Source of the DNA: Blastochloris sulfoviridis
GTDB taxonomy: Bacteria; Pseudomonadota; Alphaproteobacteria; Rhizobiales; Xanthobacteraceae
Direction: 5' to 3'
DNA: 64,000 nt
Assembly: GCF_008630065.1 (NCBI RefSeq)
Contig: NZ_VWPL01000015.1
Span: 22,449-86,448, forward strand
This document shows, in pieces, positions 483 through 6,018 of the stretch. The first letter of the stretch is position 1. Every line of letters begins with the position of its first letter. Under the pieces are notes generated by a model. The model worked only from the letters and a program-made list of their open reading frames with translations. It searched no databases and had not been told where the DNA came from. Made by a program: the position numbers and the translations under genes.

Positions 483-3992
<3,510 letters not shown>

Positions 3993-4255
3993 CCCGTCCC
4001 TCCCTGCGGCCGATGAGTCCACAGTGCGCACTCCCGCCCCCCGCTGTCGAGCCGACCCGGCCGACCGTCCACAGCCTGCCGACGCCGGCTTCCGCAGATG
4101 GCGACCCGCCCCGCGATTGCCGCCCGCGATGTGGGGCCGCGCCCGATGAACGACCTTCGCCGGGCGAGGTGCAGCCGCGCGCGGGATCCCGCGGGATCCT
4201 GTGCAGGTTCCTCAGCGGCCGAACCGCGGCCCGCCGGCTCCCGAAGGGGCCTTCC

Positions 4256-4360
4256 TCAGAAACTGCCGGCGCCGAGCAGCTGCGCCCACACCACAACGGT
4301 GGCGGCGAACAGGCCGAGCGAGGCAAGGGCGGCGGCTTCTGTGACGAACGCGCGGATCAT
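4256..4360 (-). CDS. 34-residue single-helix membrane protein under LexA-type boxes
   Basis: A short gene starting at the ATG of 4358-4360 and ending with TGA at 4256-4258. A strong ribosome-binding site (GGAGG) lies five bases before the ATG. The peptide has a short polar head (MIRAFVTEAA), one hydrophobic helix of about 20 residues ending in VVVWAQLLG, and a short tail. Codon third positions are mostly G or C, as in neighbouring genes. Two GTTC-N7-GTTC-type boxes lie 20-58 bases upstream, so SOS control is likely. SidA of Caulobacter is a comparable tiny SOS-induced inner-membrane protein that blocks division; the similarity here is size, topology and control, not proven homology. The function is unknown. 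Confidence 0.7.
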   Translation of the reverse strand: MIRAFVTEAAALASLGLFAATVVVWAQLLGAGSF

Positions 4361-4380
4361 GGCGACCTCCGTGGTGACCG

Positions 4381-4395
4381 GAACAAACCCGGAAC
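4381..4395 (-). promoter_or_regulatory. LexA box (SOS operator) 1
   Basis: GAAC at 4381-4384, seven bases, then GAAC at 4392-4395. On the minus strand this reads GTTC-N7-GTTC, the LexA operator described in alphaproteobacteria such as Caulobacter, Rhodobacter and Sinorhizobium. It lies 21 bases before the start codon of the 34-residue gene, at the expected transcription start. Confidence 0.75.
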
Positions 4396-4398
4396 TCA

Positions 4399-4427
4399 AC
4401 CATGTTCGATTTTTGTTCTCGCGTCAA
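4399..4427 (-). promoter_or_regulatory. Predicted promoter of the 34-residue gene
   Basis: Read on the minus strand there is TTGACG (4427-4422), a 17-base spacer, and CATGGT (4404-4399). The -35 match is good and the -10 is weak. LexA box 2 fills the spacer and box 1 covers the expected start point. Confidence 0.4.
4404..4418 (-). promoter_or_regulatory. LexA box (SOS operator) 2
   Basis: A perfect GTTC-N7-GTTC (GTTC at 4404-4407 and 4415-4418), eight bases from box 1. On the minus strand it falls in the spacer of the predicted promoter of the 34-residue gene, a position suited to repression. It could also act on rightward transcription. Confidence 0.75.
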
Positions 4428-4655
4428 CACGCGATGCGCGCAGTCGTGCTCCAGCTTGAATTTTGGGGCGCGGCGATGCCGAGTTGTGAGGGGCAACCGA
4501 GGCCAGCTTGAGGCTGAAAAAGGGTTGCGCGTAGTGCGAGCGAGTGACCGGCTACTCGCGCGAATCGAAAACGCCAGCAGACTGGCCGGGAGACACTGCA
4601 GCGCGACAATCGCGAATGCACCAGCACGTCGAATTATTCAACGGAGACGAATCGG

Positions 4656-4677
4656 CGTAAGCTTACGACGCTATACT
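4656..4677 (+). promoter_or_regulatory. Palindrome and -10-like element upstream of the dcd-like islet
   Basis: A perfect 12-bp palindrome CGTAAGCTTACG (4656-4667) is followed by TATACT (4672-4677), a good -10 hexamer. No clear -35 is visible. The predicted transcription start falls at the LexA box at 4686-4700. Confidence 0.4.
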
Positions 4678-4685
4678 AACGTGCA

Positions 4686-4700
4686 GTTCCGTTTTTGTTC
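4686..4700 (+). promoter_or_regulatory. LexA box (SOS operator) 3
   Basis: Perfect GTTC-N7-GTTC: GTTC at 4686-4689 and 4697-4700 with a T-rich seven-base spacer. It begins nine bases after the TATACT -10 hexamer, covering the expected start of transcription of the 88-residue and dCTP-deaminase-like genes. This suggests that the pair is induced by DNA damage. Confidence 0.75.
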
Positions 4701-4822
4701 CGAATATGATAATGAGTTATCAACTCAAAAAAGTTGAGGATACTCAATATGTGGCGGTTGTGCCGCGGGAACAACGGTATGGTCGCGAGCGTCTAGATTC
4801 CACGCTTGCCGGAGGCACAACC

Positions 4823-5089
4823 ATGATGCGCGTCAAAGTGGAGCGGGTGAGCAGGGGGCTGCATCCGAGCGAGGTCGTAGTGGCCGTTACAACGAAGAGC
4901 GGCAAGGAGGAGCTTGCCGTCGATGGACGGTCTTTGCAGGACTCAACTCTTGGGATAGGTTGGCCGGTAGGCCAAGAGGATGGCTACTACTTGGTAGAGC
5001 TACCCAACGAAACTTTTCGAGGATTTTGGCGCGTTTGGGTGCCAAAAACTGACGTGATTTGCAACGACGCCGCAAGGATCCCTGCGTGA
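4823..5089 (+). CDS. Hypothetical protein paired with dCTP deaminase-like gene
   Basis: I do not recognise this 88-residue protein. The start is the ATG at 4823, which has GGAGG seven bases upstream; the same frame is open from an ATG at 4706, giving 127 residues, but that start has no ribosome-binding site. The product has no membrane helix or signal peptide and looks like a small beta-rich domain with alternating hydrophobic residues (SEVVVAVTTKSG, YYLVELPNETFRGFWRVWV). Its stop codon overlaps the next gene's start by three bases (GTGA), which implies translational coupling. Base composition is lower in GC than in the flanking operons, suggesting acquisition. Confidence 0.6.
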   Translation: MMRVKVERVSRGLHPSEVVVAVTTKSGKEELAVDGRSLQDSTLGIGWPVGQEDGYYLVELPNETFRGFWRVWVPKTDVICNDAARIPA

Positions 5090-5643
5090 TTCTCACCGAT
5101 CGCGAGATCAAAAACTCATTGGTGAGCGGGCTTATCGAAATTATCCCGCTCCCTGCGGCAGATGCGTATTCTTCGACTTCGGTCGATCTGAAGTTGGGGC
5201 CGATAATCCGTGTCTTTAAACAGCACACGGTGGGCCTTACGGCTGCGATTGACCCAACCGTTCCCGGTTATAGCGTCGTCAAGCTGATCGAGAACGAAAC
5301 CGAGGCGATAGACATATCGACGTCCGGATACGTTCTCCCTGGCAAGACGCTCATTCTCGGTTGGACGCGAGAAGCGATCGCGCTGCATGAACGTGGCCGT
5401 GTCGCGGCCCGGGTTGAAGGCAAGAGTTCGCTGGCGCGCATCGGGCTGGCCGTGCATGTCACCGCGCCGACCATTCATGCCGGATTCAAGGCGCCATCGA
5501 TCCAGCTCGAAATCGTGAACCACGGGCCGCTGCCGATCAGGCTCAGCCAAGGGATGCCGATCTGCCAGCTCATTTTTGAGCAGACACTCGGCATGCCGGA
5601 CAAGGCCTATCAGGGACAGTTCCTCGGCCAGACGCCGACGTAG
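5086..5643 (+). CDS. dCTP deaminase / dUTPase-superfamily protein
   Basis: A 185-residue member of the dCTP deaminase/dUTPase fold, which converts dCTP to dUTP, or dUTP to dUMP, as a trimer. The N-terminus ILTDREI is typical of Dcd. GKSSLARIGL at 112-121 matches the nucleotide-binding GRSSxARxGL motif, and Glu142 in IQLEIVNHG fits the Dcd catalytic glutamate. The usual PGFxGxITLE segment is altered to AGFKAPSIQLE. The start is GTG at 5086, overlapping the upstream stop; an in-frame ATG at 5059 lies inside the upstream gene. Whether it makes dUTP for repair, alters pools as defence, or is a housekeeping copy cannot be told. An SOS box lies upstream of the pair. Confidence 0.8.
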   Translation: MILTDREIKNSLVSGLIEIIPLPAADAYSSTSVDLKLGPIIRVFKQHTVGLTAAIDPTVPGYSVVKLIENETEAIDISTSGYVLPGKTLILGWTREAIALHERGRVAARVEGKSSLARIGLAVHVTAPTIHAGFKAPSIQLEIVNHGPLPIRLSQGMPICQLIFEQTLGMPDKAYQGQFLGQTPT

Positions 5644-6018
5644 CAGGTCCACGCCCGCCGCAGGTCATGGGTCCCCTTCCCTCGCGCGGCCAGGGCCGCG
5701 CTCGCCGGGGACGACGGGTGGCTGCTGAAAGCTGCGGTGGTCCAAGGACGCGCGGAGCCCCCTCACCCGCCCTCTCCCTCCACCGCCATCAACTATCGCA
5801 TCCAGGGGACTGGTGTCCTCACCCGCCCTCGCTGCGCTCGGGCACCCTCTCCCGCAAGAGCCTGCGCCCGGGCGCGCGCAAGCGCGGCCCGGGTGGGAGA
5901 GGCAAGAAGGTGCGTCGCTCACTTCGAGAGTTGCCTCCCCCGGCGCCCGCTCACCCCAAGCGCGCTCTCACCCCAAGCGCGCTCTCACCCCGAGGGCTCC
6001 CTCACACCAAGCGCGCCC
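5644..6018. repeat. Intergenic repeats between dcd-like gene and lolD
   Basis: No gene is supported here. About 5810-5905 is a copy of a repeat rich in CCTCACCCG and CCCTCTCCC blocks that also appears at 39906-40075. About 5950-6025 holds four to five imperfect direct copies of a unit like CACCCCAAGCGCGCTCT, about 19 bases each, running into the lolD stop codon. Confidence 0.6.

Follow-up and report, generated by a model that had tools for sequence, protein, structure and literature searches.

A short SOS-type membrane peptide gene conserved upstream of dnaE is a probable counterpart of Caulobacter SidA

In Blastochloris sulfoviridis, two LexA-type boxes and a reading frame of only 34 codons precede dnaE. 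Is this short frame a gene, and if so, what would its product do after DNA damage? We analyzed it within a 64,000-nt stretch of contig NZ_VWPL01000015.1 (hereafter the window), together with its counterparts in related genomes. The sidA-like ORF occupies 4256..4360 on the minus strand, stop codon included, and reads from an ATG as MIRAFVTEAAALASLGLFAATVVVWAQLLGAGSF (34 aa). A Shine-Dalgarno motif, GGAGG, can be read five bases 5' of that ATG (4366..4370, minus strand); both elements had been named in a sequence-only reading of this DNA, and both were found. Purine-rich sites also precede the peptide ATG in relatives (by eye). Across 20 loci, pairwise differences in codons 2-29 numbered 1605, 694, and 2922 at codon positions 1, 2, and 3, respectively. 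Because most changes fall on the third position, the ORF is evidently translated and under selection. AlphaFold2, run on 20 sequences, predicted one helix spanning residues 2-30 (mean pLDDT 93.4, pTM 0.55), in line with the single-helix membrane peptide proposed earlier. The product would thus be a very short one-helix membrane peptide, for which membrane insertion is predicted. Neither NCBIfam nor Pfam contained a model matching the window peptide, and the plasmid collection yielded no match to it.

Both LexA-type boxes of the alphaproteobacterial form (GTTC-N7-GTTC) attributed to the promoter are present and exact. Box 2 (4381..4395; GTTCCGGGTTTGTTC on the minus strand) lies over the expected transcription start, and the oppositely oriented box 1 (4404..4418; GTTCGATTTTTGTTC on the plus strand, GAACAAAAATCGAAC when read on the minus strand) sits within the putative -35/-10 spacer. 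The hexamers bracketing box 1, assigned by eye on the minus strand, are a putative -35 TTGACG (4422..4427; CTTGAC in many relatives) and a weak putative -10 ATGGTT (4398..4403; TATGTT in several relatives), and the spacing from TTGACG (4427-4422) to ATGGTT (4403-4398) is 18 nt. The previously suggested layout, with one box in the spacer and one at the start, agrees with these hexamers, but a sigma-70 consensus scan of 3900-4800 called no promoter. The window contains three exact boxes (the third at 4686-4700) against 1.19 expected, with three or more in 14 of 100 shuffles, and the whole genome contains 74, compared with 53 matches to the reversed pattern. Box number by itself is unremarkable and was rejected as evidence; the arrangement stands above chance because box, peptide, and dnaE are conserved together. 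The genome encodes one LexA over the profile cut-off, and the first base of a GAAC-N7-GAAC box lies 73 nt before the lexA ORF start. A further exact box (G000:C7:44976-44990, L449) stands just before an ORF that, by eye, resembles ComM/YifB.

Downstream of the peptide gene lies dnaE1, encoding DNA polymerase III alpha (483..3992, minus strand; NF004226, 1472.9 bits), whose ATG follows 263 bp past the peptide stop on the same strand. A terminator scan of the window detected no terminator-like site between the two genes on the minus strand; two weak ones occur upstream of the promoter (4573-4589), with 1.1 expected by chance. The gene order is lolD - peptide - dnaE, with lolD set apart from the peptide by additional genes not carried by the same-genus relative G001. 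This extra stretch (~4430-6018, ends not mapped), situated between the peptide promoter and lolD and absent in G001 (L002, L434), contains the third box, an 88-aa ORF (4823-5089), and a dCTP deaminase-like gene (5086-5643; TIGR02274 at 1.7e-32). Among 453 loci, neither protein had a relative besides the window's own. Relatives of the 88-aa protein (53-54% identity) occur on five plasmids of Mesorhizobium and Sinorhizobium, in four cases at a place where no gene is listed, and distant relatives of the deaminase (<60% identity) occur in 64 phage-collection records, many of them from archaeal viruses. Possibly they are a mobile pair of nucleotide-pool genes with a link to the SOS response. A repetitive stretch past the dnaE 3' end (~127-412) has reading frames with a repeated peptide motif.

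The arrangement of boxes, peptide, and dnaE recurs in relatives. Of 61 genomes searched with the peptide (own genome included throughout), 27 gave a match at E ≤ 1e-3, and relaxing the threshold to E ≤ 1 raised this to 35. All 20 fetched loci, which were the best-matching ones, carried an exact box directly upstream of the peptide ATG, 18 carried two, and dnaE lay downstream on the same strand in every case, within 1.5 kb in 19 and ~2 kb away in the twentieth. The orientation and place of box 1 were kept in most of them; L007 is arranged otherwise, and box 1 of L017 has no exact form. A scan of named genomes, from which the best 80 of 270 relatives were used, included Bradyrhizobium, Nitrobacter, Rhodoplanes, and Pseudorhodoplanes. 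Within these best 80, an exact box occurred within 150 nt of the peptide in 78 loci, two or more boxes in 74, and dnaE downstream in 77. Two of the three loci without dnaE reach the contig end no more than 352 bases from the start of the peptide, and the third (L390) has 2.6 kb free of dnaE. Conservation of the peptide and its upstream boxes in relatives, the check suggested by the sequence-only reading, is therefore found in both sets (20/20 fetched and 78/80 named loci boxed). In G031 (L429 5811-7834), the peptide and dnaE stand ~2 kb apart, with other sequence in between. Both boxes are retained there, which hints that the peptide keeps SOS control of its own even away from dnaE.

We also approached the locus from dnaE, a design that avoids choosing by peptide. 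Regions of 700 nt upstream of the approximate dnaE start were taken from 119 genomes of the order sample, comprising all genomes with a dnaE match among 120 searched. A short membrane ORF was counted if it encoded 22-50 aa with a mean hydropathy of at least 1.7 over 17 residues, followed a purine-rich site, and started no more than 130 nt from an exact box. The rule was set after some of the loci had already been examined, and it misses peptides lying further off (L089) as well as L099, which has no exact box. An exact box was present in 66/119 regions and a box together with such an ORF in 57/119, leaving 62 genomes that lacked the combination as defined. Dinucleotide shuffles, which skipped N-containing regions, produced a box in 1-9 regions and the combination in none (10/10 repeats). 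When the sequence was shuffled around the real box positions, 0-2 of the 66 regions acquired an ORF. A one-mismatch box with an ORF was found in four of 53 box-less order regions (shuffles 0). The peptides of the order are 24-40 aa long (median 32) and are separated from dnaE by a median of 127 nt (range 26-300 across the 57 loci, dnaE start approximate); 52 of them gave the consensus xxxxxxDxAALxxxxxFxxxxxxWxxxxxxxx. Outside the order, a box was detected in 16 and a box with ORF in 11 of 62 class genomes, a non-random set of 27 drawn from the best-matching loci and 35 picked by hand from 185 matches.

Caulobacter SidA is a LexA-controlled peptide of 29 aa in the inner membrane and is reported to block division through FtsW (PMC4211646). 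Are genes recognized by the SidA model found at this position too? The curated model (NCBIfam NF033228, cut-off 35 bits) matched 47 of 200 genomes of the order of genome G112 at E ≤ 0.05. The 25 that exceeded the cut-off all belong to one family (f78), which we infer to be Caulobacteraceae, the Caulobacter family. Among 14 control genomes, one exceeded the cut-off and three, including Caulobacter vibrioides, had any match. None of the 241 genomes of the class-wide sample passed the cut-off; 92 had matches at E ≤ 1, mostly to fragments of longer frames. We compiled 32 SidA-like loci, 30 from the 200-genome search plus L139 and L142, of which 25 are over and seven below the cut-off. In all 32, dnaE follows closely on the same strand; in 24, lolD lies upstream within the fetched stretch, which is the order of the window's neighbours. 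An exact box occurred within 150 nt in 23 of the 32, and a box with at most one mismatch in 32/32, the latter count carrying no chance control.

Judged against column permutations, profile comparison favours co-linear homology of the peptide profiles with SidA. With hhalign, the order-wide profile aligned co-linearly with SidA over 27-30 columns (score 28.4), a score reached by none of 150 permutations of the transmembrane columns (maximum 19.0) and none of 60 permutations of all columns (12.6). The profile of the window's close relatives scored 18.4, likewise above 150 transmembrane-column (maximum 15.5) and 60 all-column permutations (17.5). The probabilities assigned by HH-suite itself were low: 6.5% with the close relatives' profile and 51% with the order-wide one. 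Single-sequence scores were low: the window peptide had no match to NF033228 and scored -0.7 and 1.6 bits, equal to background, against custom SidA profiles. When the order peptides were ranked against 413 real short membrane ORFs, a decoy set that excludes true relatives from named loci, separation was moderate (AUC 0.74-0.79); 8-10 of 57 peptides lay above the decoys' 99th percentile, and for one SidA profile the best decoy (18.3 bits) outscored every peptide. The class group reached AUC 0.64-0.69. The SidA model matched 2 of the 20 loci peptides at noise level (best E 0.024) and 1 of the 52 order peptides (0.067), among which three unrelated families also found one each. The window peptide should accordingly not be filed in the curated SidA family NF033228, and the case for orthology is built from genomic place, box, size, predicted topology, and a permutation-tested profile match, not from a pairwise match.

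How closely does the window peptide resemble SidA and other known division inhibitors? Like SidA, it is very short (34 vs 29 aa), has one predicted hydrophobic helix, follows a LexA-type box, and is encoded just upstream of dnaE on the dnaE strand, with lolD further upstream; the co-linear profile match includes a shared acidic residue and shared A-L, S, and F positions. Unlike SidA, it falls under the curated score and has a helix of the LFVGMIAVWAQ type (GFVWMMCSVAQ type in SidA), and its group mostly carries two opposite boxes, whereas SidA-like loci have none to two exact ones. That SidA is the closest analogue in size, topology, and control had been proposed before; the common place of 32/32 SidA-like loci and a profile score above 150/150 permutations strengthen this view, and the shared locus just upstream of dnaE extends the resemblance beyond that proposal. 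The own genome had no SulA match and encodes an FtsW over the cut-off. YneA and ChiZ are larger than the window peptide. Like SosA, these Gram-positive inhibitors are small membrane proteins induced by the SOS response, and they stop division at a late stage. YneA binds FtsW, and both YneA and ChiZ contain a LysM domain; the 2026 study that describes this also modelled SidA and similar peptides, with low confidence, on FtsW TM7 (PMC13396833). SulA of gammaproteobacteria is likewise an SOS-induced division inhibitor but is reported to act on FtsZ, and DidA of Caulobacter, which also inhibits division as a small one-helix protein produced upon DNA damage, differs in its 71 aa, its SOS-independent activation by DriD, and its action on FtsN (PMC4211646).

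We consider the conserved gene before dnaE to be probably this group's counterpart of SidA, a likely SOS-induced, FtsW-directed division inhibitor, and three other explanations were weighed against this. A chance ORF with chance boxes is hardly credible: finding three exact boxes in 64 kb is not unusual, as the shuffles show, but neither the conservation nor the shuffle controls fit an accident. A quite unlikely explanation is that the ORF is a leader peptide acting in cis on dnaE, through its translation or its transcript, and that LexA controls dnaE from the promoter ahead of the ORF. DnaE is among the alphaproteobacterial LexA targets, it is the next gene in nearly all loci at a median gap of 127 nt, and the window has no terminator-like site in between. 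Against a leader, the amino-acid sequence itself is under selection, with changes mostly at third positions, the product is predicted to form a membrane helix, and the gap varies, dnaE lying 0.7 to 2 kb away in some loci; moreover, Caulobacter SidA is reported to act on division as a protein (PMC4211646).

Would an SOS-induced membrane peptide with a different target, such as a TisB-like depolariser or a regulator of another membrane enzyme, explain the locus equally well, having only place and control in common with SidA? Some short hydrophobic peptides of the SOS response do act differently, single-sequence similarity to SidA is weak, and the window's group has an invariant W near the helix end where SidA has none. 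This explanation is nevertheless unlikely, as locus, size, predicted topology, and box are all as in SidA and the SidA profile match beats every permutation tried. The window peptide is therefore best read as a divergent, positional orthologue of SidA, and by analogy it likely works as SidA does, halting division after DNA damage.

For a SidA counterpart, the following course can be proposed. LexA bound to the spacer box and the start-site box would repress the peptide gene; upon DNA damage, activated RecA would lead to LexA cleavage and the peptide would be made, possibly from a transcript shared with dnaE. Its helix would enter the inner membrane and bind the septal peptidoglycan synthase complex (FtsW/FtsI/FtsN) at FtsW. 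As reported for Caulobacter SidA, and presumably here, the bound FtsW complex would be held inactive until repair ends. Activity of the SidA kind would also entail FtsN binding, arrested septal synthesis, and filamentous cells.

More tentatively, and at somewhat less than an even chance, we hypothesize that a sidA-dnaE unit is ancestral to Caulobacterales and Hyphomicrobiales. In such a unit, one LexA-controlled promoter would serve both a divisome-blocking peptide and the replicative polymerase, coupling the arrest of division to the restart of replication. The SidA checkpoint would then be an ancient device of alphaproteobacteria rather than something peculiar to Caulobacter, overlooked because the gene has only ~30 codons and evolves fast. 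The peptides before dnaE would make up a broad SidA-like family with rapid sequence evolution. Among the literature matches listed, no title or abstract opening dealt with SidA homologues in Hyphomicrobiales or with sidA-dnaE adjacency. The locus provides a candidate peptide at a fixed genomic place in Bradyrhizobium, Nitrobacter, Rhodoplanes, and others, and the LexA boxes found before dnaE may in part belong to the peptide gene.
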